From NCBI GenBank assembly GCA_002189035.1, contig NEEC01000020.1, positions 1,488,001-1,552,000 of the forward strand: 64,000 bases of DNA. Direction: 5' to 3'. The notes under the pieces were generated by a model. It searched no databases. It saw nothing but the letters and a program-made list of their open reading frames with translations, and was not told the origin of the DNA. This document shows positions 24,962-64,000 of this stretch, in pieces. The stretch is from Utricularia gibba (Eukaryota; Streptophyta; Magnoliopsida; Lamiales; Lentibulariaceae). The translations under genes and the position numbers were made by a program. Numbering within the stretch: position 1 is the first letter of the stretch; every line of letters begins with the position of its first letter.

Positions 24962-26090
24962 TTGAAGTATGTAATAGATAGGGATGTGATCATGGAAAAC
25001 TTTGACTTACAGACATTCTCTTATTTCCTTGTTTACAGAAACATTCCTTCAAATGACATCGATATAATGTCATTGGATGAACTGAGTGGTTCACTACAGG
25101 CTTATGAAAGCAGGTTAAAGAGCGAGGAACTTGTTGTGCAACTTTTGCAAGTAACGATTGCTACCAAGTATGAATCCAATCATAAGGAAGGGATGTCTTT
25201 GAGACTTCAAGTTAGAGGCAGATTTTCTTATAGAAGTCGAGGAGGATGGCAAAACTAGCAACAATTCCATCAAACTTCCCTTGCTGAGAAGGAGCTTGTC
25301 TCATCCTCGAGGGGATAAGATAGAATAGCAGAGGTAGAGGAGAACGGAAGAATGGGAAAAAAACAATTAATAAGTCCAACATTGAATATTACTTTCGTTA
25401 TAAGAAAGGGCACTTTTCTTGGGAATGTAAGAATGCCAATACAGATGAAATCCAACAATCCAACATGACTCATGAAATGTTTAAGTAGGAGGAAAGTCCA
25501 ATTCTGCTCATGGCTATTAAAGAGAAAAATTCAAATCTTTTTAAACTATGGTATTTAGACTCAGGGGTGAGCAGTATATGAGTAGCTATAAGCACATGTT
25601 TATGATCTTGATGAATCTCATAGAAACAAAATCATATTGCGGAATTCCACCACCATTGAAGTTGCTAATTAAGACTATATTTTGATGAAATTGCATCATT
25701 AAAGTCATAAAGTTATCTTCAATGTGTTCTTATTTCCTAGTTTGAAGAATTTGACTCTTGGCTGAGTTCTTGAGAAGGGATATCAAATTTATTCTCATGA
25801 CACAAAATGATTATGTGGAATTCCTCCATTGAAGTTGTTGGCTGAGGCTCTATTTTGATGAAATTATATGTTCAAAGTCACAAAATTATCTCTAATATGT
25901 TGTTAGTTCTTGGTTTGAAGAATAATATTTTGAGTCTTGGCAACCTCTTGAAAAGGAATATCAAATTTATTCTCAAGAGAATAAATTTTGGAGGTGAAGT
26001 GTGTCACATTAAACTCTTGAGGCATTTTTGATCATGTGTGTGAATAGTTGGGGGTAAAAATAAACCTGACCTAGTTAGAATATATCAATC
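24962..26090 (+). pseudogene. Copia gag-protease remnant
   Basis: Open at 24,962-25,258 with the gag signature MSLDELSGSLQAYESRL. Downstream, other frames give NIEYYFRYKKGHFSWEC, a zinc knuckle whose first two Cys are Tyr and Arg (about 25,385-25,435). Protease follows near 25,545 (WYLDSGVSS). After that the 'phe-gln-leu-leu-glu-lys-gly' neighbourhood occurs twice because of an internal direct duplication (about 25,637-25,805 and 25,813-25,975). The duplication junction that defines the 21.6-kb unit cuts through this remnant at 25,982. Confidence 0.7.
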
Positions 26091-26099
26091 TAAACTGCA

Positions 26100-27849
26100 A
26101 CTTAAATTTTTACTATTGTATTTTCGATTGGAATTCCGATGTATGTATTAGTGTTTCCTTTATTTTATTGATTTTATTTAAATATGTATTTTTAAAATTT
26201 ATTATTGATGGGGCACAACAATTGTGACTATTATTTTCCATAGGGATTACAATATAAGTAACATTTGTAATATTCTGGATCATTATTTTTGAATAGAAAT
26301 GGATTTCAAATCAAAATGAAAACAAAATTCTTATACCTGACCTCAATTATCATGATTTATATTTTTATACCTGACCACAACAAAGACAAATCATATATTT
26401 AAATTGCAAAGGGCAAATATATTTTGAGGTAGTTCAACTTTAAGCTCGATAAACGTAATATGATGTTATTATATAAAAAAAGTGGTATTTTTTAATTAGA
26501 AAATGAATATCATGACCCAAACCTTATTAATTATTAAAAAATTATTTTCTCGATCAGTTATTCAAAAAAATTATTGCTTGCATTTTTCTAATAGATGGGT
26601 AAATACAGCAAATGTGCATTTGCAATGCTTGAATTTTTTTTTTTTTTATAAAGAAACATTACCACCTCAATGCATAGTTGAAGCACTTGCAATTTTTTTT
26701 CATAAATGCGCAGGCACCACAAACGAACATTTACAGTGATTGTGAAAATTTTAATTTCTTTATAAAAAGCATACGCACTTTAATGCAGCATTTGTGGTGC
26801 TCACAATTTTTTAAAAGAAAATGGGAAGGCAACGTCAGTGCACATTTATTGTGATAATTTTAATTTTTAGAGAATGGGGTCGCCGAGTTTAGTGCAATCC
26901 ACACACCCTCAACTTATTTTTTAAAAAATAAATTACCATGTTGATTTACAAGAAAAAAAAAATTGAAAGACATTCAATGAAATCTTTGAAGTTTTCCATT
27001 AAAGTAAAAAGGAAAAGAATGAATAATTATTTGGATTTGATTATCGCATTCGCCAACTTGGTGCATTAGGGGCCAATGAATTACTAATTTTAGAAAATTA
27101 GGTCATGCGGTTTAATGCAATATGTACTGACCTTGTTTTTTTTTATTAAAAAAAATATTTTTTAAAATAAATCACCACTTTGATTTACAAAAAAGCATTT
27201 GAAAGATCTCTAACGAAATCTTTCAAATTTTCTATTTAATTATAAGAGAAGAAGAAATATAAGTATTTGAGGGCCAATGAATCACTAATTCGTGTAGTTT
27301 GATTCAATCCATGAAGCTAATAAACGTAAATGATAAGTGATTTTGTGTTACTAATATTTGTGTTTTTTATGATTCACTTAGATGGGTTTTGCATTCTTTT
27401 AATCCTACTTTCCTTATCTTTTTAAAGAATTTTATATCTTCATACTATTTTGATCTTTTTGGAGTAAAAGTGTGTTTTGTGATTTTTTAGTACGAATTTG
27501 GAATAATTTGGAGGATTTTCGAACTACTTTGATGAGATTTGGTCTATCCGGATAAAGACTCGGTCAAAGATTCTCGAATAAGATAAGATTCGTATCTTAT
27601 CTTAGAAAATTTGGATCTTATCTTAGAAGATTTATATCAAATCTTAGAAGATGAAGATAGAAAATTTGATGTAAGTCCATCAAGAAAGCCCAACAAATCT
27701 CCACCATTATATAAAAATCCAAAGACGAAGATCAAAAGGGAGCCATGAACTAGATGTCGACCATATACTTTGTATCAAATAACAAATTCCTCCAAAGGAC
27801 TCGATCATGGGGGCTGGTCCAATTGCACTGTTCTAAAGTAGTTTATGCC
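26100..27849. other. AT-rich repeat debris before the rRNA pseudogene
   Basis: 26,590-26,830 holds short inverted 'gcaccacaaa'/'tttgtggtgc' blocks, weakly like the minisatellite of the hAT MITE. About 27,320-27,770 resembles an LTR promoter region (TGATAAGTG start, 'attatataaaaatcc' TATA-like box). It carries three 'tatcttagaa' repeats near 27,590-27,650. No gene is seen. Confidence 0.4.
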
Positions 27850-28385
27850 GTTAACTTTGATTTTTCAATGTCAAAATGCTTGCTGACTTGTATAGAAAAA
27901 CATTCAACTTGTCTAACAAAGTGGGTCACAGTGAACAGCCCCTGGAAACTTTTTACCAAAAAAACACGTCTTGGCAAAGTTGTAACACATGTATGGGGCT
28001 GATGCCTGCCAACTATCGGAAGGTGAAGGAAGTTAGTGATCTGATGATAGGGGAGCCCGTGATTAAAGCCTCAGTGAACGAAAGCTGTAATTATAACGAT
28101 TCTAAGTTAGTGAAATTCATTTTCGGGTAAGTTCCAAATGTTTAACGATCTGAGCACTATATCAAAGAGAGGATCGACATGTTTGTGAAAAATGCGGACT
28201 ACCTATGAAGCTTGATTGTTCCCGGGAACACCTGCATCGCTTAGGTGGAAGGCGAAGAGTGCAATACCACTCTCGAATAGCTAAGGTAGGATTCTAAGCT
28301 TGTGTCAGGAGCTATGGAAGTCTTAGGTAAGATAGTGTTCATGCAACATAGGCCTCCTAAAAGGGATTTATATATGCACATTCAA
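27850..28385 (+). pseudogene. rrn26: Mitochondrial 26S rRNA fragment (NUMT), unit 1
   Basis: Clearly large-subunit rRNA, domains IV-V. Landmarks in order: 'atgcttgctgacttgtatag', 'aaagtgggtcacagtgaaca', 'gatgcctgcc', 'cggaaggtgaaggaagtt', 'gtgatctgatgataggggag', 'ataacgattctaagttagtg', 'cgggtaagttcc', 'aacgatctgagcac' and 'atgcggactacc'. These correspond to universally conserved 23S segments. The extra 'gcttaggtggaaggcgaag' and 'taggcctcctaaaagg' blocks fit the plant mitochondrial gene. Many C-to-T and G-to-A changes and gaps show long nuclear residence, so it is not a functional rRNA. Confidence 0.88.
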
Positions 28386-30116: not shown

Positions 30117-33100
30117 TTACAATCAATGAAAATATTATCTTTTGAAACTTTAAAAGATGGATCTTTTACATTCAAGTTATCAAGTTTTCATCAAGAAGAA
30201 TTTAGAAAATTGTTGACAAACATGATTATTATTGATGATTGTCTTTTTATAACCGATGAGAGTTTAGGATTCAGAAATTTTGTTTATAGTTTACAACCAA
30301 GATTTAAGATTCTTAGTCGTTGTCATGAGATTGGAAAGATTATGTCTTACTACAGGTACGTAGACTTCCATACAAAATATGAACTATATGTGTGTTATTG
30401 ATGTGTGTCGTTTCCACAATAAATTTTAATATTTTTAAAACTCATAAAACACAAAAGCGTAGTACGGGTGTCGAACGCAGGGAATTGTTTTTCAGTGAAT
30501 GGTAAGGTTACACTGGATACAACTGTCACGATTTGCAAACGGTTTTGGAAGTAAAAGTGTGAGAAACGTAAATGATGAAGCCTGAGTAAGGGAATAAGAG
30601 GGGTTTGAACAGACAACTGAAATAAATGTAAGCGATGAACCTTAAATAAACTGAATGTTCCTAGGTTTGGAATCCCACCCGGCTATATTCGTTGCGTCTT
30701 CACTCTTCTCTGGTCTTCTCAAATACTCAGTTATAGGAGTAAGGAATTGCCTACCCTCCCTTACATTTTTTTGCAAGAAGGCACAAGAATAGCCCGATGT
30801 TACTCCTCTTTGGACGAAAGTGAGAATAAGAGGTCCTACTAGCATACCCTCACGGTTGAATTGCACATGTGTGCCCAAGTGTTGCCAATGATCCAATGAG
30901 TCCAGATACGAGGTCACTACCTGTCCATTGATCCTGAGGTACAGCCATAGACAAAACATTGTCTTCCTCCTACCAAAAGGACATGAGTTGGTGTTCTCCA
31001 CCTTACTCCTCTCCAAAACTCGTGGGTAGTGATCAATTAACTATGAATCTTGAATAAGGGGACTGTTACAGAAAAACTGCAATATAGTCGCGTGAAGACA
31101 TACGGAACCCGTTCAGATTCAAAGAAGACATAAAGATAAGCTAATGAAACATAGATCTGGGGGTGTCCCAACCCAGAAACAGAAGTTTCTAGCCGTGGAC
31201 GGCCATACAAACTAAAGGAAACGAACACAGATTCTAGAGAAAAGCTAGAGGAAAATCTTATAGATAAAGAAACAAAGTCTAAAGTAAACTAACTACTACT
31301 TGTCCAACGTCTGAATAGAACTGAACTTCAATGAGAGTCTGAGCTTTCGTATCCCCTTGGTTCCTGCTGTGAATTGGGGTAACTTGCAAGCAAACGTCTG
31401 CTCTAAATTGGGGTAATGATATCGCCTGTCAGAGACTCCCGTGTTCCCTACATCAAGGCTCATAATTAGGTGTCTACAGTCTTCCGGAAATCAAGGGAAT
31501 GTCAACTCGAGAAGATCCAATTTGTCGCCATCTGCTGCCCTTTTGCTCTCACTTCCTACCACGTGTGCACCTCTAGAAAAACTCAATTAAAACTAGCAAA
31601 ATTATTATATAAAATACAAGATTTAGGATAATTACCCTAAACTACATAAAACCTAAATCTCATATTATAGATTTCTAATTAGACTATTCTAATCACATTT
31701 AGACTTAAAAACAACCTAAGAAATACTAAGAAAATGACACTTAAGAGTTATATTGTATATTGGATTGATAAAGATTTCAATTTACAGGTTCTCAATTTTT
31801 CTATCATTCCAAATCACAAAGGTAAGACCATTGGTTATATGATTGAGTGCTACCTCTTAGAATGGGGAATTGAGAATCTACTTACAATGTATGTTAAAAA
31901 TTACGAGTTCTAATGATGTTGTCATATGATACATCAAGGATAAGATGAAGGGTTGGAAAAATATAGTTTTGAATAATGAGTTTGTGCATATGAGATGTTC
32001 TTCTTATTTTAAAAAAATTCATGGTAAAAAATGATCTGAAGTTGTATATTGCATCAATTTTGAAAATTAAAAATGATATCATCTTCTCCATCTAAACTTT
32101 GAACTTTTATGAGTTATCCATCCATTCAAAAAAATTGAAAGTAAGAAACTTATATGTCTTGATGTTGACACTCGGTGCAATTCCACTTATTTGATATTAA
32201 AAAATACCTTAGTTTTTTAAAAGTATTTGAAAGTATGTTTGAGGATCATTGAAATTATATAAATATTTTGGTATCTATAAGAAGAAAGGTCATGCTGAAT
32301 TTCATTTTATCAGTTGTATTAAAGAAGCTGAGTGAAATTAATGAAAAAGAAAGCTTAAAAGATAATTATATTGATCCCCCTGATGCTTTTGATTGAAAAG
32401 TGGCAAAGTGTTTTGTCAAGTTTCTGAAATTTTTCTATGATGCAACAATGAGATTTTTGAAAAGTAAATATTCTAAATGTTAACATTTTATTTCAAGAGA
32501 TTATGAGCATCCCTGGTATTTTAAGTGTTTTATTTGGATATCATGATACAAGTATAGCTTTGGTTGCAATGAAACTGAATGATAAATTCTCAAAGTATTG
32601 GAGTAAATTGAATACAACTAATGCTTTATTGTTTATTGAAACTATTTTAGATATTCGATATAAGTTGAGATTTATCAAGTATTATATTGATAAAATATAT
32701 AATCAAGGGAAGCATGGTTATTTGTGTAAACAAGTGTTGGATAAATTGATGAGCACATTAATTACTTTATTTGATTTTTATGCAAAACTTTATTTTTTTG
32801 CATCTAAAGATGATGATATGTATTTCTCAATCGCTAACTCTTCAAATACTTCTTTGAATGCTAGCTTGGATGACATGTTCAATTCTAATTTTTCTCTAGG
32901 GTCCCAATTCGCTAAAGAACTTGAGAAGGATTTTAATAATTGTAATATCTGAGCTTGCCATCTATTTGGAAGAAAAGTGAAAATTAGTTGGAGAACATGA
33001 AACTTTTGATACCCTAATTTGATAGAAAAATAATCCTTCAAGATGTCATCTTCTTTCTCAAATGATTAGAGAAGTGTTGGCGATTTCAATTTCTACCATA

Positions 33101-40960: not shown

Positions 40961-42187
40961 TAAAGATGTCACTGGGTCTCGGTATACCTGGACCCGAACC
41001 GAAACTAACCCGAATGGGTTCGGTTTCGGGCCAAGAAGTGCTAATTTTTTTTCGGGTTCGGGTTGTTTTACATGGACCCAACAAGCTATCGGTCATGTTT
41101 GGGCTTAGCTTTCTAAAACCTGTTGATCCGGATCTGAACCGATGCATAAATATTTTTAAAATATTGATAACATTTAATTTCTTAATGGGCTTAATAATTA
41201 ATATATCCTTAACCCTAATTAATCCTTTCAACTTCTATATCCTTAACCCTAATTCATCATTTCAACTTCTAAAATCATCACAGTGGAAACTTGAAGAGTA
41301 TGTACTACATCATTTTCGAATTTCTATTTTGCAACACTTTCGTTTGTGGTGAATATTTTTTGTTTTGTTTGTTTCATCACAATGGAAACTTGAAGAGTAT
41401 GGACTACATCATTTTCAAATTTCTATTTTGCAACACTTTCATTTGTGATAAATATTTTTTTGTTTTGTTCGTTCAATAGTTATATAATTATTTATTATTT
41501 TTTTATGTGAACTACCTTTTTTCCTGTTTTTTGTTTACGTGTGCCGAGCGGTAGATGGTTTCTTATTGTGCATTTTTCCTGTTTTAGTTTTAGGATTTAG
41601 GGAGCCATAGATTGGTTTTTTAATGGCTAGTGACACTAGCTAGTCAGCACACCACACACCATTCGAATATGGAAATAAAATTATTTTTTTTTTTACAAAA
41701 GTTTCTTATTTTTCAGAAACTTTGATTTTTGATATTTTAATTTTACAATTTTCAATTTTCATGAGTTGAAATTTCAGTGTTTTTTCATTCTAAAACTCTA
41801 AATTCCTAATTCTAACCTTTATGTTTGTATTTTTAATTTCTTTAGATGACATCTCAGCAAGACAGTTCACTAACATCACTTCCATTATTGGGATCTCCAG
41901 ATCAAGGTAGCCGTGGAGTTGATGATGATAATGACCTAGTGAAAGCTGTTGAAATATGACAATGGAATCTCTAAAAAAAGAAAACTAAAATCTGAGATAT
42001 GGGAGCACTTCAAGCAATTCCATGATGATAAGACAAATGAATGGAAAACTCAACGCAATCATTGTCAAAAAGTCATGAGTGGAGACACAAAAACTGGTAC
42101 GTCATCTTTGAAAAGACATTTTAATGATACATGTCCTTGGACATCAGATACTATGAATATTAAGCAAGTGATTTTGAAGATGGGAAA

Positions 42188-43333
42188 TGATAAACAAAAA
42201 ATATTGCACGTCATTAAAATGTAAATTTCTTTTATCAAATAAAATTTATAAACCTGATTCACATCAAATCATATAAAATATATGTATATAGTGGATTAAA
42301 ATCGAACATAAGGAGCTAGATGATTACTATATGAAAGTCAATGCATACAATCAGTATCACGTTAATAGATTTAGTCTTAACTAGGACTAAGGCATAAGTA
42401 TGATAAAATACAGTAAAGAAAAGTAACAAACTTCTCAACTTGGTTATTTTTAAGATGAAATGGGTGATGTCTTGAGATTCCTAGGAAATGTATGCTTATT
42501 ATTAAACACGCTCACATAAACCATAAATTAAACAACTAATAAACAAAGTCTAAGTCTACCTCTCATTAGGGTTATTAAAATGGGTTTCACTATTTCCCCC
42601 CTTTGGATCTATCTTGATTTGTTAAGGAAGTGACGTGACTTATGAATGATTAAGTCTAAAAATTGATTAGCACATTTCTCTCCTTTTCACCCCAAGTAAC
42701 CCCTAAGTACTTAGCCACTTATAATAAGGGAAATAAGAGCGTTTTTATAATACATCCTAAACAACATTTTGTTCTCAAGGCTAAATAACAACATAAGATA
42801 CGTAACAAAGCATAAACAGTAAGTTGTTCAAGTAGGGAAAATGAAAACTAGTCTCAGCTAAGAACAGTGTTCATCAATAACAAAAGTAAATCTTCAAATG
42901 GAAACTTATTCTTCTGAATCGCCGTCCCCCTCCTTCTTCCCTCTAGAAAAATTCTCTAGAAACATGTGTCGTGTGCCCCAATGGGGGAGCTCTTGTTTCT
43001 CTCTCTATCTTGTCCCTTTTTTATCCAAAATCCTCATTTCTCATCTACTTAGATTTTGTGTTCTTATTTTCAGACTTTTATCTTATCCTTTGTCATTACA
43101 CTATTCATATCTGACTCCTTGGGATTTGTGTTGCCGATATATGTTGCATTATTCAAAGAAAACTATTAGAAGTAAAGTTAGGACTAAATCAAAGATTTAG
43201 TCCCAACTAAGATTAAAAAAACACAACTACGGTATTATGTGCAAAAATATAGAATTAGATAGTAAAGTTTAAATATTAAAGTACAATATGAGTCATTTCA
43301 ATATATTCAATTACTCAAAAATATGTGTTATCA
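42188..43333. mobile_element. Solo LTR, TGATAA...TTATCA family (copy B), unit 1
   Basis: 1,146 bp, starts TGATAAACAAAAAATATTG and ends ATATGTGTTATCA. Flanks GGAAA (42,183-42,187) and AGAAA (43,334-43,338) form a 5-bp duplication with one mismatch. Strongly similar along its length to copy A at 3,782-4,957, and includes the hairpin at 43,181-43,203. Confidence 0.88.
43181..43203. repeat. Hairpin in LTR copy B
   Basis: GGACTAAATC, loop AAA, GATTTAGTCC, a perfect 10-bp stem at the place equivalent to 18,917-18,944. Confidence 0.9.
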
Positions 43334-46464: not shown

Positions 46465-47542
46465 GAACATAAATTCAAGTATCACGTTGCCGATTCCCAA
46501 ACGGTAGAAATGGGGGTTCAAAAGATAGGAAATGTATTATGGGTAGGCGCAGCTGCATGCTCCACCAATCAACAGTTGATGCCTTCAGTTTACGAATTCC
46601 CATGTTTTATTTTTTTTTTCTTTTTTACAAGTATGGGTATGGGATGATGATATGATCTACAATACTAAATGCCCACCTCTTTCATTGACGACTTTGGGTC
46701 AATCCCCTGGAAATCACCTCTTTCACCCATGTGTTGTGTAGCGTTGGCAGGGGATTATCTTTCCCCTGCAAATTTCCTCTTTAAATACAACACGGGGGGC
46801 CTTTTCTTCTTTCTTCTTTCTTTCACCAGGCTGGCTTCTTTTCCTAAAAAGATGCTGAGGTTGGTCACCGGAATCCCGGGACCAAGCGGCTTCGGAACAG
46901 GTTACTCAGGGGATTGACTAGTGGTATTAGTGGATAATCCGATTGGAAATGATAATAAAATGCACATGTCGTAGCTCTAAGATGCATTTGGACATAGTAC
47001 ACAACCACACATTACTCTATTTCATGTATGTGGAACAAACCCACAATCAGAGTTATGTCCTAATACGAAAATGAAATGGATTCAATAAAAATTTTGTAAA
47101 ACATATTAATAAAGTAGAATCATATTATGAGTTGTTTCATACCCTAAATAAACTTGAACACTCAACAGATCCATTGGAACAGTAGATACATATCTCTTAA
47201 AATATCAACGCAATCCTCGGCTGTGGGAGCAGCAGCCATTTGATTAGGCTTACAACCATCTTAGGATACATTGAGTGTATCTTATACGCATATCATACTT
47301 TACTCAAGTGACATTAAATCTATACTTCATAAAATTTCGATCTAGTAATAATAAATAACTAGTATGGAATAAAAATGCACACTTTAAAATATTTGAGTGA
47401 AAATATATATTTAAAACTTTGATGAAAGTTAGGGAATTTTTGTATCATCAAAAACATTTTGGGGTAAAAATATATTTTTCAAACATATGTGACATATTTA
47501 AACATTTTTATAAATATTTTGGGGCATTGTTGCATCTGTGTG
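46465..47542. other. Downstream region of the lectin kinase to the duplication junction
   Basis: Probable 3' UTR with T-rich tract near 46,605. AATAAA at 46,954-46,959 is a possible but distant poly(A) signal. From about 47,000 the sequence is AT-rich with no gene. The junction to unit 2 is between 47,542 and 47,543. Confidence 0.5.
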
Positions 47543-47661
47543 TAAATTTTGGAGGTGAAGTGTGTCACATTAAACTCTTGAGGCATTTTTGATCATGTGT
47601 GTGAATAGTTGGGGGTAAAAATAAACCTGACCTAGTTAGAATATATCAATCTAAACTGCAA

Positions 47662-49411
47662 CTTAAATTTTTACTATTGTATTTTCGATTGGAATTCCGA
47701 TGTATGTATTAGTGTTTCCTTTATTTTATTGATTTTATTTAAATATGTATTTTTAAAATTTATTATTGATGGGGCACAACAATTGTGACTATTATTTTCC
47801 ATAGGGATTACAATATAAGTAACATTTGTAATATTCTGGATCATTATTTTTGAATAGAAATGGATTTCAAATCAAAATGAAAACAAAATTCTTATACCTG
47901 ACCTCAATTATCATGATTTATATTTTTATACCTGACCACAACAAAGACAAATCATATATTTAAATTGCAAAGGGCAAATATATTTTGAGGTAGTTCAACT
48001 TTAAGCTCGATAAACGTAATATGATGTTATTATATAAAAAAAAGTGGTATTTTTTAATTAGAAAATGAATATCATGACCCAAACCTTATTAATTATTAAA
48101 AAATTATTTTCTCGATCAGTTATTCAAAAAAATTATTGCTTGCATTTTTCTAATAGATGGGTAAATACAGCAAATGTGCATTTGCAATGCTTGAATTTTT
48201 TTTTTTTTTATAAAGAAACATTACCACCTCAATGCATAGTTGAAGCACTTGCAATTTTTTTTCATAAATGCGCAGGCACCACAAACGAACATTTACAGTG
48301 ATTGTGAAAATTTTAATTTCTTTATAAAAAGCATACGCACTTTAATGCAGCATTTGTGGTGCTCACAATTTTTTAAAAGAAAATGGGAAGGCAACGTCAG
48401 TGCACATTTATTGTGATAATTTTAATTTTTAGAGAATGGGGTCGCCGAGTTTAGTGCAATCCACACACCCTCAACTTATTTTTTAAAAAATAAATTACCA
48501 TGTTGATTTACAAGAAAAAAAAAATTGAAAGACATTCAATGAAATCTTTGAAGTTTTCCATTAAAGTAAAAAGGAAAAGAATGAATAATTATTTGGATTT
48601 GATTATCGCATTCGCCAACTTGGTGCATTAGGGGCCAATGAATTACTAATTTTAGAAAATTAGGTCATGCGGTTTAATGCAATATGTACTGACCTTGTTT
48701 TTTTTTATTAAAAAAAATATTTTTTAAAATAAATCACCACTTTGATTTACAAAAAAGCATTTGAAAGATCTCTAACGAAATCTTTCAAATTTTCTATTTA
48801 ATTATAAGAGAAGAAGAAATATAAGTATTTGAGGGCCAATGAATCACTAATTCGTGTAGTTTGATTCAATCCATGAAGCTAATAAACGTAAATGATAAGT
48901 GATTTTGTGTTACTAATATTTGTGTTTTTTATGATTCACTTAGATGGGTTTTGCATTCTTTTAATCCTACTTTCCTTATCTTTTTAAAGAATTTTATATC
49001 TTCATACTATTTTGATCTTTTTGGAGTAAAAGTGTGTTTTGTGATTTTTTAGTACGAATTTGGAATAATTTGGAGGATTTTCGAACTACTTTGATGAGAT
49101 TTGGTCTATCCGGATAAAGACTCGGTCAAAGATTCTCGAATAAGATAAGATTCGTATCTTATCTTAGAAAATTTGGATCTTATCTTAGAAGATTTATATC
49201 AAATCTTAGAAGATGAAGATAGAAAATTTGATGTAAGTCCATCAAGAAAGCCCAACAAATCTCCACCATTATATAAAAATCCAAAGACGAAGATCAAAAG
49301 GGAGCCATGAACTAGATGTCGACCATATACTTTGTATCAAATAACAAATTCCTCCAAAGGACTCGATCATGGGGGCTGGTCCAATTGCACTGTTCTAAAG
49401 TAGTTTATGCC
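47662..49411. other. AT-rich repeat debris, unit 2
   Basis: Copy of 26,100-27,849, including the inverted 'gcaccacaaa' blocks and the LTR-promoter-like region. No gene. Confidence 0.4.
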
Positions 49412-49947
49412 GTTAACTTTGATTTTTCAATGTCAAAATGCTTGCTGACTTGTATAGAAAAACATTCAACTTGTCTAACAAAGTGGGTCACAGTGAACAG
49501 CCCCTGGAAACTTTTTACCAAAAAAACACGTCTTGGCAAAGTTGTAACACATGTATGGGGCTGATGCCTGCCAACTATCGGAAGGTGAAGGAAGTTAGTG
49601 ATCTGATGATAGGGGAGCCCGTGATTAAAGCCTCAGTGAACGAAAGCTGTAATTATAACGATTCTAAGTTAGTGAAATTCATTTTCGGGTAAGTTCCAAA
49701 TGTTTAACGATCTGAGCACTATATCAAAGAGAGGATCGACATGTTTGTGAAAAATGCGGACTACCTATGAAGCTTGATTGTTCCCGGGAACACCTGCATC
49801 GCTTAGGTGGAAGGCGAAGAGTGCAATACCACTCTCGAATAGCTAAGGTAGGATTCTAAGCTTGTGTCAGGAGCTATGGAAGTCTTAGGTAAGATAGTGT
49901 TCATGCAACATAGGCCTCCTAAAAGGGATTTATATATGCACATTCAA
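49412..49947 (+). pseudogene. rrn26: Mitochondrial 26S rRNA fragment (NUMT), unit 2
   Basis: Copy of 27,850-28,385 with the same decay. Shared mutations show that the mitochondrial piece was already old when the segment duplicated. Confidence 0.88.
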
Positions 49948-51678
49948 ATTCGGAATTGCCTCAATTATCTTTCTTTTTTCAAAGAAAAAAAAATTAACTT
50001 AGATAAAATGGATCGATATAAGCACAATTATACGCCCACTCATATGCTACGTTTAAAAGGTTTTCCCAAAAACTATCCTATACACATTTTATTTTTATTA
50101 AATCAAAATTTTGGAATGAACAAATTGCATTTTGAAAAAGTTCATGGAAATCTAACAAATCTTGTGAACTAGTATCCATTTGAATGAGATGTCAAACGAA
50201 ACTCCTTTTTGATTAACATTGAACTAGTATCCTAGCATTGAAATACTGAAAAAAACTATAAAAAGAAAAATTCTCAAGTATCTGTGATCATGACACGTCA
50301 CTAGAAATAAGAACAAGAATTCCAACATTAGTAATTAACAATGCATTGATCAAATATCCGACATCTAAATGAAAATCATTATTGAGGACCCAACCCAAAG
50401 AAGGATGGCATAATGGATTGATCAATTACATACAACAATACTTTTTCTAGAGTATTGTACAATGTTTTTTATACTAACTTTAAAATTAGGCATATATACA
50501 TTGAAATAAGTTTAGGATGGATAAACTCTGAAGACACTCTAACCAAATATGGAGAGAACATAAATTTAGGAAAATTGAATGTCAGATAAAATATATAATA
50601 TCATAGAAATTGAATTTGAATGGTGACGAGACCATAAATATTGATAATTTTAACTACTATTTATTTGTTAAATAGAAAAATTAATTGGCAACATGATGGC
50701 TGTAGTTAACAATCAAGTACTCGTAAAGAGACACATACCACGAATATTTGTATTTGTTGTCGGGAAAAACAGAAGCCCTGTTTCTCTTAAGATAGGAACT
50801 TAAAATTGAACCAAAATTATAATTCACGTATATTGATATGTTATGTCCATAAAAGTAGCCACACCGAAAAAAAGAAAACCATGAGTGCCCATATATCAAA
50901 GGAATTCCACTAAGAACTTGAAAGGAAAGTGAACTAAGGGTTGATTTCTTTTTCTAAAAAATCGATCCTCATCTGCTTTTCACATCATGTTTATATACTT
51001 GCATAAAGTAAAAATAACAAGATAATAAAGTAAAAAACCATTGGTTCCCGAAACTCCATTTGAGGTGTAGGGTGCTTAGTGTGGGCTCCTGGACCCGATG
51101 CAGTGTGGGGTGCAAGAATGAATATCTGATTGAGGGATAAGGAGGTCTTTGTGACCATAACTCCCGTTGAATTCCATGGGGCTGATGTTCTATAAGATGT
51201 AGCTTCACAATAAAGGTTCTAACCTCCTCGGGCAACTTCTCTATACTCTTACTTTATTAGACCAATTACGCTTTCATACCTTGAGGGTTACTAACAATTT
51301 CCTACGATGATCTCAACCCCCTTATGATGTGAGAGAACAATTTCATTCCCCATAACATTAAACTTTAGCTTTGAGATGCCAATTAGTTAGGGCTAGGGTT
51401 CAATCCTATATTTTGTGTAGATGATATGAGATCTTTGGCATTATGACATTTTTTTATTGCACTTTATCCAATGAAAAATGTTAGCTTGTACGTGATAACA
51501 TTTCCATACTCTATTAGCTTGTGGACTGATACCATCAAAAAAAGCACAGCTTGATTAATTGTGATTGAAAATTGAAACTTAACTAAATATTGTGACTTTT
51601 ATTTTCTTATTTCTAAAACAATATATCATAGTAACTTCTTATATTCTTCGATTACTAATTCTTTCATGTGACCAAATT
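49948..51678. other. Intergenic, unit 2
   Basis: Copy of 28,386-30,116. It carries the 50,909 substitution between the two unidentified reverse-strand open stretches (50,681-50,899 and 50,969-51,235), which are otherwise unchanged. Confidence 0.4.
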
Positions 51679-54600
51679 TTACAATCAATGAAAATATTAT
51701 CTTTTGAAACTTTAAAAGATGGATCTTTTACATTCAAGTTATCAAGTTTTCATCAAGAAGAATTTAGAAAATTGTTGACAAACATGATTATTATTGATGA
51801 TTGTCTTTTTATAACCGATGAGAGTTTAGGATTCAGAAATTTTGTTTATAGTTTACAACCAAGATTTAAGATTCTTAGTCGTTGTCATGAGATTGGAAAG
51901 ATTATGTCTTACTACAGGTACGTAGACTTCCATACAAAATATGAACTATATGTGTGTTATTGATGTGTGTCGTTTCCACAATAAATTTTAATATTTTTAA
52001 AACTCATAAAACACAAAAGCGTAGTACGGGTGTCGAACGCAGGGAATTGTTTTTCAGTGAATGGTAAGGTTACACTGGATACAACTGTCACGATTTGCAA
52101 ACGGTTTTGGAAGTAAAAGTGTGAGAAACGTAAATGATGAAGCCTGAGTAAGGGAATAAGAGGGGTTTGAACAGACAACTGAAATAAATGTAAGCGATGA
52201 ACCTTAAATAAACTGAATGTTCCTAGGTTTGGAATCCCACCCGGCTATATTCGTTGCGTCTTCACTCTTCTCTGGTCTTCTCAAATACTCAGTTATAGGA
52301 GTAAGGAATTGCCTACCCTCCCTTACATTTTTTTGCAAGAAGGCACAAGAATAGCCCGATGTTACTCCTCTTTGGACGAAAGTGAGAATAAGAGGTCCTA
52401 CTAGCATACCCTCACGGTTGAATTGCACATGTGTGCCCAAGTGTTGCCAATGATCCAATGAGTCCAGATACGAGGTCACTACCTGTCCATTGATCCTGAG
52501 GTACAGCCATAGACAAAACATTGTCTTCCTCCTACCAAAAGGACATGAGTTGGTGTTCTCCACCTTACTCCTCTCCAAAACTCGTGGGTAGTGATCAATT
52601 AACTATGAATCTTGAATAAGGGGACTGTTACAGAAAAACTGCAATATAGTCGCGTGAAGACATACGGAACCCGTTCAGATTCAAAGAAGACATAAAGATA
52701 AGCTAATGAAACATAGATCTGGGGGTGTCCCAACCCAGAAACAGAAGTTTCTAGCCGTGGACGGCCATACAAACTAAAGGAAACGAACACAGATTCTAGA
52801 GAAAAGCTAGAGGAAAATCTTATAGATAAAGAAACAAAGTCTAAAGTAAACTAACTACTACTTGTCCAACGTCTGAATAGAACTGAACTTCAATGAGAGT
52901 CTGAGCTTTCGTATCCCCTTGGTTCCTGCTGTGAATTGGGGTAACTTGCAAGCAAACGTCTGCTCTAAATTGGGGTAATGATATCGCCTGTCAGAGACTC
53001 CCGTGTTCCCTACATCAAGGCTCATAATTAGGTGTCTACAGTCTTCCGGAAATCAAGGGAATGTCAACTCGAGAAGATCCAATTTGTCGCCATCTGCTGC
53101 CCTTTTGCTCTCACTTCCTACCACGTGTGCACCTCTAGAAAAACTCAATTAAAACTAGCAAAATTATTATATAAAATACAAGATTTAGGATAATTACCCT
53201 AAACTACATAAAACCTAAATCTCATATTATAGATTTCTAATTAGACTATTCTAATCACATTTAGACTTAAAAACAACCTAAGAAATACTAAGAAAATGAC
53301 ACTTAAGAGTTATATTGTATATTGGATTGATAAAGATTTCAATTTACAGGTTCTCAATTTTTCTATCATTCCAAATCACAAAGGTAAGACCATTGGTTAT
53401 ATGATTGAGTGCTACCTCTTAGAATGGGGAATTGAGAATCTACTTACAATGTATGTTAAAAATTACGAGTTCTAATGATGTTGTCATATGATACATCAAG
53501 GATAAGATGAAGGGTTGGAAAAATATAGTTTTGAATAATGAGTTTGTGCATATGAGATGTTCTTCTTATTTTAAAAAAATTCATGGTAAAAAATGATCTG
53601 AAGTTGTATATTGCATCAATTTTGAAAATTAAAAATGATATCATCTTCTCCATCTAAACTTTGAACTTTTATGAGTTATCCATCCATTCAAAAAAATTGA
53701 AAGTAAGAAACTTATATGTCTTGATGTTGACACTCGGTGCAATTCCACTTATTTGATATTAAAAAATACCTTAGTTTTTTAAAAGTATTTGAAAGTATGT
53801 TTGAGGATCATTGAAATTATATAAATATTTTGGTATCTATAAGAAGAAAGGTCATGCTGAATTTCATTTTATCAGTTGTATTAAAGAAGCTGAGTGAAAT
53901 TAATGAAAAAGAAAGCTTAAAAGATAATTATATTGATCCCCCTGATGCTTTTGATTGAAAAGTGGCAAAGTGTTTTGTCAAGTTTCTGAAATTTTTCTAT
54001 GATGCAACAATGAGATTTTTGAAAAGTAAATATTCTAAATGTTAACATTTTATTTCAAGAGATTATGAGCATCCCTGGTATTTTAAGTGTTTTATTTGGA
54101 TATCATGATACAAGTATAGCTTTGGTTGCAATGAAACTGAATGATAAATTCTCAAAGTATTGGAGTAAATTGAATACAACTAATGCTTTATTGTTTATTG
54201 AAACTATTTTAGATATTCGATATAAGTTGAGATTTATCAAGTATTATATTGATAAAATATATAATCAAGGGAAGCATGGTTATTTGTGTAAACAAGTGTT
54301 GGATAAATTGATGAGCACATTAATTACTTTATTTGATTTTTATGCAAAACTTTATTTTTTTGCATCTAAAGATGATGATATGTATTTCTCAATCGCTAAC
54401 TCTTCAAATACTTCTTTGAATGCTAGCTTGGATGACATGTTCAATTCTAATTTTTCTCTAGGGTCCCAATTCGCTAAAGAACTTGAGAAGGATTTTAATA
54501 ATTGTAATATCTGAGCTTGCCATCTATTTGGAAGAAAAGTGAAAATTAGTTGGAGAACATGAAACTTTTGATACCCTAATTTGATAGAAAAATAATCCTT

Positions 54601-55014
54601 CAAGATGTCATCTTCTTTCTCAAATGATTAGAGAAGTGTTGGCGATTTCAATTTCTACCATATCATCTAAATCAGGTTTTAGTGCAAGTGGGCATATGCT
54701 TGATTCATATATACGTTCTCTTAATCCAAAAATGGTAGAGGCTCTTATTTGTTGCCACAATTGGCTGAAAGAATAACCACATTTGCTTGACATTCATTGA
54801 TCCATGAGAGGAGTTTCATTTAATGATGTAGAGAAGTATGGAGATATCTTCAGTGGTAATACTTGAATTTTTCCTATTCTATCTTTGTTATTTGAAATAT
54901 TTCTCATTTAGTATATTACATTGAAATGTACTTTTTTTATTAATTATAGATGTATACTTCGATAGTTCTTCTTCAAAAGAAGATGTAAGGACAATGGATG
55001 TTGATGAATATTAG
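51679..55014 (+). pseudogene. hAT transposase remnant, unit 2
   Basis: Copy of 30,117-33,452 with the same LTR interruption. The RNase H-fold segment is at 54,065-54,514 and the dimerisation region near 54,515-54,850. No repair of any lesion is seen. Confidence 0.82.
51961..53308. mobile_element. Solo LTR in hAT remnant, unit 2
   Basis: Copy of 30,399-31,746. The GTTAT flanks at 51,956-51,960 and 53,309-53,313 were duplicated with it, so this copy arose by segment duplication rather than by a new insertion. Confidence 0.9.
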
Positions 55015-57391
55015 ATATCATTTCCTTTTTTAATATCTAAAAGTTTCAGATTTATTTGTAACTAATGATTCATTCTCAATCTTTATTGTTTCGTGATTTT
55101 TTTTGAAGTTATTTTGTTACCTATTGCAATGACTTTGCAGCATTATTAGATTGAATGGGATCAAATAACGAAGGTTGTTGTCTGCTCTTTAACTTTGTTG
55201 GAAATGTTTTTCTATTGAGTATTTTATGTATTATTAGTTACCAGATTATATAATGTTAGAATTTGGAATTTTTAGTAATTATGATGTTTGAGTAATGTAT
55301 AACACTTATTCTTAGCTGTTCAACCGCTTGTTCACCTGCTTTCCACTTGTTGTATTTATATTTCAATTTGTAGGTTTTTTGACAATAATATTAACTGATG
55401 ATTTTAAAATATATATAATCTACTATTAATGAATCAAAATAATAATATAGGTTTAAACTGTATGACTACGTGTTTACTCACTCCTAATCATATCCTTCAA
55501 GATAACATGTCTTATTATCTCTATACCCTTTAAAAAAGAGAAAAGTTAGAGAAATTTCATTTTATTATTTCTCGATTACTCGAAAATTTTCTATTCCAAC
55601 TAGCGTTTTTCCAGTGACTTTACTCCTCCAATCTCTAGCAAAAGTCACCAAAGGTATTTTAATTCCATCTCTGGATATTTCTCCTTGATATGCGGAAGAA
55701 GTTTCAAAATATGCGTTGAGAAGATGAAAAGTCTTAATGTATTGAAAAGGTAAACTCAAGATACAAAGTATTGAGACGTAGGTCCCGTTTGGTACAATTA
55801 TTTATTTTATAGTCCATTAAGATTATTATTTTTAAATAAACACATTCATTATTTAGATTGGAGATGCATTTGATAACATTGTATAAGAATATGAATGTTT
55901 ATATTATTTTGTATTTGATAGATTGTTGTTAAATAGATGATTTTATGAAAATTACCAAAATATACTCATTATTATTTGAAGTTTTTTAACATTATTTTCC
56001 CCTATTCTTCAAATTTTGTTCATCGAAGATTTTAGGATTTGTGTTTATGTTTTACTTTCATATAAGATCTATCTATGTTATCACTTTATTACACTTCCAT
56101 CTCATCAACTCCCATTCTACCCATCAGACCCAAGAAGAAATCGGCATGTATTGAAGGTGGAGAAGGTTCTAGGGCTAACTGTAAGGAGAGGAATAGAACT
56201 AAGATAATGAGAGTTTGTTAGTGTAAAAGTAGACCCCCTCTTCCCCACTTTAAGTTTCACATTCCAAAATTAATTCTATATGTGTGAAGATAAATAAAAT
56301 TGTCTATTTTCACAATCGCTACCAAACATACTTCTAATTTAAATTTCTTGTTAAAATGCATTAACAACCTTACCAAACAAATCTGCTTATTTGTACAACA
56401 TTTCCTGTTATATGCATTTACTTGAGCTAATAAGTGTTTGCTAATCTGTCATGGTCATCCGGTCAACACTCCCTATAACTCCTCAATATTCATATTGCAA
56501 TGATTCTGGGGTTGTAGAATGATAAAATTGGTGCCTTTTCATGACCTCCACCACTGTCGGTACCTAAGATGCCCTCCCATGCGATCCGCCTTATTTTGGA
56601 AGCTTTTAAAGCCAGTTTGCAGATTCCACCACCACCCATTCATAGCTCTTTTATACGCTCTTCATCCCCACATTTATGAAACTTGTCACATACCTCATTT
56701 TTCTCAACATTCAAAAGTCAGAATTTTCTTTTAATTTCTTTTTTTCATTTTATTTTTTTCTCTGATAGCACCTATTTTGATTCAAAATCTTTATGTAGAT
56801 AGGAAAAATTTTCTTTTTTTTGCCCGATGAGGCTGCATCTCTAGCTTGAAGCCTTAGGGAAACCAAGGCTGAATTCTAGCTTTTTGCAGAATTCTAACCA
56901 GCCGCCGATTATTTTCTGCAAAAATAATTTATGCTAGCTTATTTTCTGCCCGATAAGAAGCCTGAATTCTAGCTTTTTTTTTCATTTCGGTCCTAGTTAG
57001 GAAGCAAAAAACTTCTACTACCCGACACGGACTCTAAAGATTCCCTCCTCAATCACAGCTCATAGTATTCTTCTTCCTCCAGACAAGCACCTCAAGGGGC
57101 TTTGGATGAATGAGGAACGATTTGCCTCCTCATCTTTTTTTATAAAATAAGCTAATGCATAGTGTTTTCTTTTTGTCTTGCAGAACACAGAATGAATAGC
57201 CTCATCAAGTCTACCTTCGGTTACAATTTAAAACACCAAGGCACTTGCTAATTCGGTGGTAGATGGAAGCAAGGTGCCTCACTTTCCTTGAGTTACTTCA
57301 TCGGATTTTAGTTGAATGTCAACTTGATAGGCACTATGATTTTACAGAAGAAAGTTCTGGAAATCAGTAGAGTTTATAGATGTTAAAATAA
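55015..57391. other. Intergenic, unit 2
   Basis: Copy of 33,453-35,829; nothing recognised. Confidence 0.4.
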
Positions 57392-58853
57392 ATAATCATA
57401 TATCCAAAAATAAAAGTGAAATAATCAAATATATAAAAAATCATAGATCATTAATAATTGATTGGGTCTAATTTTTTCTATTGTGATCCATATTTATTAT
57501 ATACTTAGATTTCACATGTAATAGTCTAACCCATTGGATCCTAAATTTTAGCATGGTATCAAAGCATTTGACTTGCAACATAGCTTGGGTGACCAAAATA
57601 AGTTTCATTCTAGTTTGAGCTTCTATTAAAAAAAAAAGAAAAAAAGAAAAAGTAAATGCATTGGGCTTAGACAACAAAAATTAGATCGATCTATGACCTG
57701 CCGAATTGAAGACCAGTTCGACTTGAGCACCTAATCCCACATCGAAAAATGAAAGTGAAATATTCAAGTATACAAGTAATTATGGATCATTAGTAACCGA
57801 TTGGATCTAATATTTTCTATTGTGATCCACGTTTCTTATGTACTTGGATTTCACATGTGCTCGTTCAATCCATCAGATCCTGAATTTAAATATGGTATAC
57901 AATCAGATAAAAAAAACACAAGTTTTAACCGGATCGAAGCTCAGTTCCACTTGAGGGCGGGCATTAGAATACACAATCCTACATCGGAAAATGAAAATTT
58001 TATAGTCAAGTATATAAAAAATTGCAGATCACAAATAATCAGTTGAGCCTAACCTTTTCTAATGTGATTTACATTTATTATGCACTTGGGCTTCACGTGT
58101 GTGCTCATGTAACCCATCAAATCCTGAATTTAAATATGATATAAGAGTGTTTGCCTTGCAGCATGGCTCGGGTGGTCAAGATGGGTTTCGTTCACGTGTG
58201 CTCACCTAAACCATTGGATACTAGAATTTCAACATGGTATCACAGCATTTGCCTTTCAGCACGGCCTGGGTGGCCAAGATGGGTTTCATTATTGTCTGAA
58301 TTCCGATTAAAAAAAAAAGAACAAGAAGATTCATTGGGCATAGATGACAAAAAAATTAGATCAATTTATAATCTGAGCACTACCTACAACCAGACAAAAA
58401 AATACAAGTCTTATTTGGATCGAAGACCAGTTCGACACGAGGGCATCTTTTAGAATACACAATCCCACATTGGAAAATAAAAGTGGAATAGTCAAGTATA
58501 TAACAAACTACATATCACAAGTAATCGATTGAGTCTAATCTTTTCTATTGTGATTCATATTTCTTGTGTGCTCGCCTGACTCATCGGATCCTGAATTTCA
58601 ACATGGTATTAGAACATTTGCCTTGCGGCATGACTTAGGTGGCCAAGATGGGTTTTGTATTTGTCTGAGATTCAATTAACAAAAAAAAAAAAAAAAAAAA
58701 ACAAGGACATGCATTGAGCTTAGGCAACAAAAAATCAAAATCAACCTATGACCCAATCACTACCTACAATCACACAAAAAAAACCAAGTCTTAACTAGAT
58801 TAAAGACCGGTTCGACTTGAGGGCAAGTATTAGAATACATAATCCGAATTCTC
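57392..58853 (+). mobile_element. Tandem TRIM-like retroelement array, unit 2
   Basis: Copy of 35,830-37,290. Differs by the substitution at 57,698 and one added G near 58,090. Primer-site-like words recur at matching places. Confidence 0.7.
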
Positions 58854-58871
58854 ATCCAAGTCTCTCAATTA

Positions 58872-59155
58872 AAGCATCTTTAGTGGTTTCTGGAAATACT
58901 GATGTGGCTTTCCGAAAACTACTATTATTTTTACAGAAATAAGTAATTTGAGGAAATCTCATTTTATGGAAACCAAAAGGAGGAAATCTTGTTTCCTTAT
59001 TGAAACCAACTTCCATAAGGAAACTTCACTCTATATTTTTTCAATGATTTTACTACTCGTTTTCGAAAATTGATAAAGTAATTTAGGAAACTTCGTAAAG
59101 AAAACTTAATAAAGAAAAGACACATTACTATTTGCGAGCATCATTAAAGATGCTC
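58872..59155. mobile_element. Tourist-like MITE, unit 2
   Basis: Copy of 37,309-37,592 with the same TTA flanks. Confidence 0.85.
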
Positions 59156-60982
59156 TTAGCATTGCCTATGAATGTTTGGTGTCACGTTTCCATGAGAGAG
59201 GTTGGAGGGTTCTAGGCCGCTCAATGCACAAGTTGCTGTTTCTTAGGAGAGTAGGAAGGAAGGAGAATGCTATCAAAGAGGTAGTTAAGGAAAAAACTGA
59301 GGAGAGAGTGGAGGCCTAACTTCTCCAAGTGGAGAAGTGTTGAGTGGGGATGACTTTAAAGCTAGAGGCCAATAGCACGGTGCTAAATGAAATGGAATGG
59401 ACATCACTTGTTCACACTGTAGAGTGGATAGTATGCGGGCGAATACTTTTCTTCGATACTTAGCTTCCAGGCTCTTCGGGTCGTAAGAGCAGTTGCACCT
59501 AGCCTCTATTGAGGATTTTTAGCTCCTAGTCTTCCCGCAGTTCCGAAAATGGTTGGTCGGTTGTACATATGCATTTACCAAACGCAGACTTGCCTTTTCG
59601 TTCATTTCTTCTGTATTCACTTTTACAGGTTACGTACGATATGTAAGTTTCTTTTCAGTTATGCGCAACAAGTGAGCAGATTTGTTTCCTCGCAGTTGCT
59701 ATTTCTTTTCATTTTTTCAGCCATGTCTTCATCTTTTGTTTTTAAAATGTGTTTTGAATTCAGTTTTGCTTCACATATCATTAGTTTTTCAGAATTCAAC
59801 AATAATTTATGCAATTTGATGATTCCAGCCCCAATTTTTTAGATTTAAACCCTAATTTATGTTCATGATTTACCAAGATTCTCTAACATAAATTATTTTC
59901 ATTTTTTATTGTGCTGCAAATTAATTTTTATGGACTTTAGTTTTTTCATGATATTCATATGCTATTATCATTTTAATTTTACACTTAATTTTGCATATCT
60001 ATTGTTCTATTTCCAGATTGAAACATTAAATTATTACATCTTGTATCATCATTTTTTTATTACAATTTTTTGTAGGAAATGATTACAGAGGATTAACATC
60101 TCAACGAATTATATAAGCAAATACTTTAGATGCAAGATAGAATGAATACAAACTTATTCTTGTTTTAGCTTGACTAAATGTTAATAATGATTCTGAGAAA
60201 GATAACTTCACACAAAGGAAACAAATTTTGGAAGAAGATATTTGATTATCTATTATGAAGTAATACCACTAGTTACTTGTAGCATGGATACAATTAGAAA
60301 AAAATGAAAAAATTTGAGCTCTGATAATGTCAAGAGAAGTTTGACTATAATGAATTTGATTTCAAGCAACAAGTCATGTAGCTTTTTAAAATTGATCAAC
60401 AAGGAGATTTCATTGATATTAAATATTGAGAAACATTATACCATGACTCAAAGTAGATGTCAATATGAAAATTAATGTCAAGTTTATTTTTTTGAGTGTA
60501 TTTACTATATTAAATGTCTTTTTATAAATCACAGAAATTGGTAGGTGCTTAAATGGAAAAGAATTATAAGAGAGTGTCGTATGTGCATCAATCAAATGAA
60601 CAAGGATTACCTTCACAACTATCACTGCCTTTAATAAAAGAAGAAAGATCTTTAGGATAAAATTTAGCAAATGTAAATAAAATGAAAGGCAATTGTCTAA
60701 GTCTACTTCTTCTTCTTTCAAGACTAATCACTTGGAAGGTATCTTGGTAGTTGATTTGGCAGTTCAATCAAGTATATTTTGCTAATATGCTTCAAAGACT
60801 TTAAAATAAAGATGTGAACAAGTTTATTCCATGACAACAAAAAACAATTCATGATATAACTTATCATGACATTGCAAACGCCAATTTAGTGAATGAAGAC
60901 CAGAGCACTTCTAAAGATGAGGAAAATGCATTTGTCACTTTTTTTTCACTGCTATTCAATTTTGATTTTCATAACAATATAT
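59156..60982. other. Probable 5' half of Harbinger element, unit 2
   Basis: Copy of 37,593-39,419. Carries the 60,979 substitution. Confidence 0.35.
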
Positions 60983-61613
60983 GGGATCTCCAATAACAGA
61001 GTATTTGAAATGTTTGCTTGTATGTGGAGAGACTCAGAGCTTTTACATAATCTTTGGAAACACTGATTGCATAGATTGAGAGTGAAAAAATTGTCTCATT
61101 TTATTGCAAGGTCAATTTAAATGTGGAGATCATTGAAAACCTTCATTAATGTTAGAAGTCGTAGCTTTTGAGGATATATGAATTTCACATGCATTTTTAA
61201 TAATGTCAATTGTGAATAATGATTTAAATATCTTACAACATTTTCTTTATTAGATGTAGATCTCGGACCTATGAATGGGGATATATATTTTTCATTGTTT
61301 TCTGTAATAATTTTTAAAAATTGAAAAATGGATAATCTAAATGAAATGCATAATGGTATTGGTCCAAAAGTGCAATTTACTTTTAATGAAAATTTTTATG
61401 AAATGGAATATTATTTGGTTGATGGAATTCAACTTGATTGGGCTGTTTTTATGAAGTCCATTACTCTTCAAGACCAAAAAACTTGACTTTTCGTTAAATT
61501 TCAGGAGAGTGCTCAAAAAAATATGGAAATCACTTTCGGTATTTTGTTTGCAATACTTAGAATACCTGGACAAGTTTGGGATAAGACTTAGAAATATTTT
61601 ATGCATGTATAAA
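60983..61613 (+). pseudogene. PIF/Harbinger transposase remnant, unit 2
   Basis: Copy of 39,420-40,050 with the same Trp-to-stop changes. The only difference noticed is at 61,492. Confidence 0.82.
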
Positions 61614-61802
61614 ATATCTCCAGTAGCTGAAGGCGGCTGTCATAAAAGCCACCCAAGCCCATGTATTGTTGACGGCTGTAGTAAAGAGCAAGAGCTTCTG
61701 AACCTGAAGGTAATGCCAAGATGCTCATTCTACTCTTCAGCTACTGCTCACAATATCATGAGGCTCAAGAAAATAATGAATTATATTTAAAGAATGATGA
61801 GG

Positions 61803-61981
61803 TGTTTGTCCAAATGAATACATTAGAGAAAAAGATCATTCCACCAGGACCAATGACTAGGAGTAAGAGCAAGATGTTTGATGATACATTTAAGGCTTTT
61901 CTTAATACTATTGGAATCAAACATGGACTTGAAGACATCTCATCAAAAGACCTCAACTACTTGAAGGTGGATTTATCTTAG
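61803..61981 (+). pseudogene. Ty3/gypsy pol C-terminal tail, unit 2
   Basis: Copy of 40,240-40,418 (GPMTRSKSK motif, then stop). Confidence 0.6.
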
Positions 61982-62523
61982 AGTATTGGACTTGCTAAAT
62001 TTTTCTATTTCATTTAGTTTGGGCCAAGTAATGTTAGAGCCCAATTCTAAAGTATAAATACTCTAAAGTTGTACTCTTTTATAACTTTTAGTTCATTTCA
62101 TATATGTTGTGAGGATTCTCTTCTTCTTTAAGTGTTTGAATACTCTTGACTTATGAAGCTTTGAGCTTGTGGTGTTCTAGGATTATCACTTCCAATCTTC
62201 TCTCTTTTCTGAAGTGTGGCTCTTAATTTTCTTTGTTTCGAAGTCTAATTGCAAGAGATTCATTCTCTTGAGGATAGACTTGGGTGGTTTTCTTTTTAAG
62301 CTTCAAAATCACCTCTTGTTCGTCGATTGTTAATCTCTATAGATTAGAGGGTCACATCACAAGATAAATAACTATGTGGAATGTCAGAGTAGATGCCGGG
62401 GATCCAATAGGAAGATGCGAATTTTCCCTTCGGAGGTTACCGCCTAAGTATGTGTTTGGGCCTTGAAGACTTAACTTGTACAGTTCATGCAACATAAGAC
62501 TGGTTTTATTATTGAGTGTACAC
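61982..62523 (+). other. Probable gypsy LTR remnant, unit 2
   Basis: Copy of 40,419-40,960. Confidence 0.4.
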
Positions 62524-63406
62524 TAAAGATGTCACTGGGTCTCGGTATACCTGGACCCGAACCGAAACTAACCCGAATGGGTTCGGTTTCGGGCCAAGAA
62601 GTGCTAATTTTTTTTCGGGTTCGGGTTGTTTTACATGGACCCAACAAGCTATCGGTCATGTTTGGGCTTAGCTTTCTAAAACCTGTTGATCCGGATCTGA
62701 ACCGATGCATAAATATTTTTAAAATATTGATAACATTTAATTTCTTAATGGGCTTAATAATTAATATATCCTTAACCCTAATTAATCCTTTCAACTTCTA
62801 TATCCTTAACCCTAATTCATCATTTCAACTTCTAAAATCATCACAGTGGAAACTTGAAGAGTATGTACTACATCATTTTCGAATTTCTATTTTGCAACAC
62901 TTTCGTTTGTGGTGAATATTTTTTGTTTTGTTTGTTTCATCACAATGGAAACTTGAAGAGTATGGACTACATCATTTTCAAATTTCTATTTTGCAACACT
63001 TTCATTTGTGATAAATATTTTTTTTTTGTTCGTTCAATAGTTATATAATTATTTATTATTTTTTTATGTGAACTACCTTTTTTCCTGTTTTTTGTTTACG
63101 TGTGCCGAGCGGTAGATGGTTTCTTATTGTGCATTTTTCCTGTTTTAGTTTTAGGATTTAGGGAGCCATAGATTGGTTTTTTAATGGCTAGTGACACTAG
63201 CTAGTCAGCACACCACACACCATTCGAATATGGAAATAAAATTATTTTTTTTTTTACAAAAGTTTCTTATTTTTCAGAAACTTTGATTTTTGATATTTTA
63301 ATTTTACAATTTTCAATTTTCATGAGTTGAAATTTCAGTGTTTTTTCATTCTAAAACTCTAAATTCCTAATTCTAACCTTTATGTTTGTATTTTTAATTT
63401 CTTTAG

Positions 63407-63748
63407 ATGACATCTCAGCAAGACAGTTCACTAACATCACTTCCATTATTGGGATCTCCAGATCAAGGTAGCCGTGGAGTTGATGATGATAATGACCTAG
63501 TGAAAGCTGTTGAAATATGACAATGGAATCTCTAAAAAAAGAAAACTAAAATCTGAGATATGGGAGCACTTCAAGCAATTCCATGATGATAAGACAAATG
63601 AATGGAAAACTCAACGCAATCATTGTCAAAAAGTCATGAGTGGAGACACAAAAACTGGTACGTCATCTTTGAAAAGACATTTTAATGATACATGTCCTTG
63701 GACATCAGATACTATGAATATTAAGCAAGTGATTTTGAAGATGGGAAA
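63407..63748 (+). pseudogene. hAT transposase BED-finger exon, unit 2
   Basis: Copy of 41,846-42,187, with the same frameshift and the same Cys-to-Arg change in the BED finger, ending where the solo LTR starts. Confidence 0.85.
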
Positions 63749-64000
63749 TGATAAACAAAAAATATTGCACGTCATTAAAATGTAAATTTCTTTTATCAAA
63801 TAAAATTTATAAACCTGATTCACATCAAATCATATAAAATATATGTATATAGTGGATTAAAATCGAACATAAGGAGCTAGATGATTACTATATGAAAGTC
63901 AATGCATACAATCAGTATCACGTTAATAGATTTAGTCTTAACTAGGACTAAGGCATAAGTATGATAAAATACAGTAAAGAAAAGTAACAAACTTCTCAAC
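63749..64000. mobile_element. Solo LTR copy B, unit 2 (partial, cut by window edge)
   Basis: First 252 bp of the copy of 42,188-43,333, starting TGATAAACAAAA after GGAAA. Confidence 0.88.

Follow-up and report, generated by a model that had tools for sequence, protein, structure and literature searches.

Tandem duplications of chromosomal segments by unequal crossing-over (NAHR) between direct repeats are known among plant copy-number variants, and the flanking repeat should be present three times in the product, as Zhang and colleagues set out for Ac (PMC3744419). The same paper cites an NAHR rate of 1e-4 to 1e-6 for repeats of about 1.2 kb lying 4 kb apart in Arabidopsis, and treats the reversed-ends Ac/Ds duplications, in which a transposon terminus lies at a duplication-related joint (PMC3744419). 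Tandem growth of LecRK families is likewise well documented, for example in soybean (PMC5897391). The array described here is like the NAHR variants in having two segments, three recombining repeats and near-perfect identity, and nothing essential differs; the recombining repeat here has an LTR on its right and a truncation on its left, and is a 1,349-bp portion of a dispersed, decayed repeat. With the soybean clusters of L-type LecRK genes it shares a receptor that combines a legume-lectin and a kinase part, and members that lie close together on one contig, although here the copied unit is a 21.6-kb block with all of its flanks and copy 2 carries a frameshift in the assembly (PMC5897391). 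The Ac/Ds duplications (PMC3744419) differ in that the terminus here is an LTR end, and in that the array has three copies of a flanking repeat, which the Ac/Ds ones lack. The array is a young and well-resolved case of a known kind, an ordinary tandem duplication that leaves the general understanding of LecRK expansion unchanged. It offers a clean, base-level example of receptor-kinase family growth in which the recombining repeats, the interrupting LTR and the uninterrupted ancestral sequence can all be read.

The window, which is the whole 64-kb stretch of DNA analysed (C317:1,488,001-1,552,000), was compared with itself together with 10 kb to its left and 50 kb to its right, a region of 124 kb, and the assembly searched comprises 100.09 Mb in 516 contigs. 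Positions are those of the window unless a contig is named. In the self-comparison of the 124-kb region, 25,982-48,892 aligns to 47,543-70,448 with 99.94% identity over 22.9 kb, for which chance is no concern, and R1 also matches R3. The order of the array is A/R-LTR-Y-R-LTR-Y-R/B, with 3 copies of R (1,349 bp) and 2 copies of a 20.2-kb segment (Table 1), and no second haplotype or further copy of it was found elsewhere in the assembly. A sequence-only reading of the window had given 25,982 and 47,543 as the starts of the two copies and 21,561 bp as the period, all of which the self-comparison reproduces, and its proposal of a very recent direct tandem duplication is supported. Extension by 50 kb to the right recovered the second kinase copy at 66,048-68,023, where 66,049-68,025 had been predicted, and placed the end of unit 2 at 69,099 (predicted 69,103). 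The array had been expected to stop at that point, which proved wrong, as a third unit follows for 1,349 bp, up to 70,448. The description of the segment as transposon-laden holds for decayed pieces only, these being hAT RNase-H and BED fragments, the 415-bp LTR end and MITEs. The fragments of hAT-type transposase (RNase-H fold) and BED zinc finger lie within the unit at 32,461-32,952 and 41,943-42,224, upstream of the kinase.

Table 1. Features of the array and of the related kinase locus (window positions unless a contig is named)
Feature	Position	Strand	Remarks
Unit 1	25,982-47,542	+	21,561 bp; R1, LTR fragment and segment Y with intact kinase; from self-comparison
Unit 2	47,543-69,099	+	21,557 bp; 47,543-64,000 in the window, the rest past its edge
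R1	25,982-27,330	+	Left edge is a true breakpoint (A/R), right edge is the LTR terminus
R2	47,543-48,892	+	Left side runs on without a break from native sequence
R3, partial third unit	69,100-70,448	+	1,349 bp; sits in an intact copy of repeat E
LTR fragment, unit 1	27,331-27,745	+	5'-terminal 415 bp; starts exactly at the end of R1
LTR fragment, unit 2	48,893-49,307	+	Same fragment, at the end of R2
Truncated LTR/Y joint	27,745/27,746, also 49,307/49,308		Identical in both units; candidate novel joint
Left array boundary	25,981/25,982		Single-copy flank A joined inside the ~290-bp repeat
Dispersed repeat of ~290 bp	47,343-47,632	+	Spans the unit 1/unit 2 border
Kinase copy 1	44,488-46,464	+	Intact, single open frame, 658 aa, L-type lectin receptor kinase
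Kinase copy 2	66,048-68,023	+	Past the window edge; 1-base deletion at 66,735
Third kinase copy, intact	C317:1,803,424-1,805,397	-	98% protein identity; ~0.27 Mb from the array, inverted

The border between units 1 and 2 had been taken for an informative breakpoint, and this too was mistaken. The ~290-bp repeat that spans it matches other contigs at 81% identity without interruption across 47,542/47,543, so the border is not a breakpoint and the sequence there is continuous and ancestral. R itself is a slice of a dispersed repeat family of about 3 kb, E, an intact copy of which (68,474-71,504) forms the native right flank of the array; in the border between the units, E begins at about 46,917 and runs through R. 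Parts of E stand in the same order at C3:4,833,569-4,837,700, C321:194,206-191,243 and C4:1,744,892-1,743,970 (right half), three loci compared by match coordinates only, and at C317:1,789,161-1,788,552 and C317:1,826,331-1,824,437. The end of Y followed by R recurs at the C3 and C321 loci, and R followed by B recurs at these two, at the C4 locus, at the first of the C317 loci and at C317:1,825,193-1,824,437. At the R/B point (...ATAAACGTAAA/CAGACC...) one paralogous locus aligns gap-free over 54 bp at 88.9%, which makes flank B native; the third unit only appears to end at 70,448 because units 1 and 2 carry the LTR there. The idea that B is foreign DNA attached at 70,448 was rejected, since the paralogous locus is unbroken across R/B, and so was that of a single huge LTR element made up of R1-Y-R3 with R as its LTRs, since R starts with TAAATT, ends with GTAAA and belongs to a larger dispersed repeat. 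A Tourist-like MITE with a likely TTA duplication is nested in E at about 70,460-71,049, 11 bp away from the site that the LTR occupies in the other copies, and the paralogous locus near C317:1824.75 kb is an empty site for both MITE and LTR. Just to the right of the array, 71,949-72,948 is a very high-copy repeat with at least 39 other matches of nearly full length, at 92-94%.

The LTR fragment starts precisely at 27,331, with the terminal TG of an LTR family (TGATAAGTGA...ACCATCA), whose members elsewhere are solo LTRs of about 1.19 kb that end in ACCATCA and are flanked by 5-bp target duplications. The sequence to the right of 27,745/27,746 has no match in the assembly outside the array, and neither the rest of the LTR nor flank B sequence was found when sought inside Y. 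The distance of the LTR to its relatives (about 12%) was dropped as an insertion age, as what it measures is the age of the source lineage rather than that of the insertion. On the left, flank A ends in a 173-bp x 1.8 tandem repeat (25,653-25,975), and no microhomology was seen at the A/R joint at 25,982. The presence of 90 bp of the ~290-bp repeat in R1 speaks for a conversion tract, or for a local copy having been made of this particular E copy, and against an independent insertion.

We think that the array is probably a genuine and very young tandem duplication of the 21.56-kb kinase segment, made by NAHR. The precursor would have been A-R-LTR-Y(kinase)-R-B, with two near-identical direct R repeats of 1,349 bp around the 20.2-kb segment, and a single exchange that paired the left R of one chromatid with the right R of the other would give A-R-LTR-Y-R-LTR-Y-R-B, with this R-R recombination presumably the last step. 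Consistent with this, three repeat copies (starting at 25,982, 47,543 and 69,100) are placed around two segment copies. The LTR-Y joint is identical in both units and so predates the last exchange, and the near-identity of R1, R2 and R3 means that the two R copies of the precursor must have been either recent or homogenised. The precursor could itself have come from earlier local copying of E, with the LTR inserting into one of the copies and truncations at 25,982 and 27,745; the A/R joint at 25,982 is not accounted for by NAHR alone. Insertion of a rolling-circle product or an extrachromosomal circle between A and B is not favoured, R-B being native.

The full alignment contains 5 substitutions and 8 indel events (9 bases, one event being of 2 bases). 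Units 1 and 2 proper differ by 4 substitutions in 21,557 bp, or 1.9e-4 (Poisson range 0.5-4.8e-4); R1 and R2 differ by 0 substitutions, and R3 has 1. All four substitutions between the units are transitions and two of them fall in CpG, although CpG makes up 3.3% of sites. The decay of methyl-cytosine gives such a pattern and consensus errors usually do not, so the four look like real mutations and the units like distinct DNAs. The indels lie mostly in homopolymers, as is typical of consensus errors, and the right-hand copy is the shorter in all five single-base indels from 64,486 to 69,752, so some of the indels are likely to be such errors. At an assumed rate of 7e-9 substitutions per site per year, the duplication would be about 13,000 years old (3,600-34,000), and a tenfold slower rate would make it about 130,000.

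Kinase copy 1 encodes a Lectin_legB domain (24-272, E 1.5e-74) and a Pkinase domain (341-602, E 2e-48), with the hydrophobic stretch VLVFGLPVILVVLLATLVLVITFYF between them as read from the translation, and the catalytic motifs VAVKK, VIHRDIKPSN and DFG. Its predicted product thereby combines the lectin ectodomain, transmembrane stretch, Ser/Thr kinase domain and motifs of an L-type lectin receptor-like kinase. The second kinase had been predicted to be whole, and in the assembly as it stands it is not: at 66,735 there is CCCC in place of CCCCC, the shifted frame runs into a stop after no more than two codons, just past codon 230, and the VAVKK, HRD and DFG motifs are lost. The inverted paralogue keeps five C at this site, which makes copy 2 the odd one out. 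There are about 75 kinase matches in the genome and most are open, so frameshifts are not everywhere in the assembly. Copy 2 is either a pseudogene or mis-called at the five-C run. We take this as a warning that second-copy genes in young arrays may look broken merely from unpolished homopolymers. Both copies have the same 18.5 kb upstream and the same 2.4 kb downstream, and the initial effect of the duplication would thus have been one of plain gene dosage. A quite improbable reading is that the deletion is real and that the new gene turned into a secreted, lectin-only truncation (~231 aa, without the kinase) within roughly ten to a hundred thousand years of the duplication, next to an intact receptor. 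If so, it could represent a newborn decoy or dominant-negative form, inside an array still able to change its copy number by R-R exchange.

We are confident, short of certainty, that the duplication is real, and consider it unlikely that the assembler placed a single real segment, or its two alleles, in the contig twice, the false duplication that the sequence-only reading had named as an alternative. Such an artefact would explain why indels, mostly in homopolymers, outnumber the substitutions and why copy 2 is frameshifted in a C run, but four transitions, two of them in CpG, are hard to get from consensus errors. The units are more alike than plant alleles ordinarily are, as if the same reads had been used twice, yet no haplotig was found elsewhere in the assembly and the region is without N. 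R repeats of this kind are also a place for an assembly graph to loop, although R is found here in three distinct contexts (A/R-LTR, Y/R-LTR and Y/R-B), and the borders of unit 1 with unit 2 and of unit 2 with the third are biologically continuous and not chimeric joints.

That the duplication arose not by NAHR but by a replication-based process such as template switching, or through the alternative transposition of class II termini, seems to us rather unlikely. Alternative transposition of Ac/Ds makes tandem duplications in maize (PMC3744419), hAT-derived fragments are present within the segment, and the LTR start at 27,331 puts one joint exactly on a transposon terminus; that terminus, however, is of an LTR (TG...CA) and not of a class II element, and no 8-bp target duplication of the hAT type is evident at the joints. 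The lack of homology at the A/R joint would also suit these mechanisms, whereas the R-LTR-Y joint is present twice in identical form, and so is older than the last duplication, and the three R copies are the expectation for NAHR and not for reversed-ends transposition. It is highly improbable that the array was once longer, with at least three Y units, and that a deletion of its left part, including the first Y, left a truncated R1 beside A. The start of R1 within the ~290-bp repeat, where no other feature marks the site, next to single-copy A, would fit such a history, as would the identical LTR-Y joint in both units, which implies that the joint was made before the last exchange, but an extra deletion is needed and the A-R-LTR-Y-R-B precursor requires fewer steps. 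An exchange between the R repeats of that precursor is the reading that we prefer.

The third kinase copy shares only 2.7 kb of DNA (96%) with the array locus, around the gene, and copy 1 differs from this inverted paralogue by 5 synonymous and 12 non-synonymous changes (dN 0.008, dS 0.011). Non-coding pieces common to the array and the paralogous locus differ by 2.6-8.4%, and the older, paralogue duplication is therefore clearly separate in time from the tandem one. The sequence-only reading had argued that the tandem duplication could be dated apart from the gene, and the 4 substitutions in 21.6 kb between the units, set against this non-coding divergence, bear it out. We also note that codon 524, in SSDAYGFG, encodes Ala in copy 1 but Val in the inverted paralogue; receptor kinases usually have Val at this position, and the Ala of copy 1 may be derived. 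A further relative of the kinase lies near the start of another contig (C2:3478-5507), with 85-90% amino acid identity in the kinase part, several frames with stops, and a matching 3' flank, and looks like a decayed copy.
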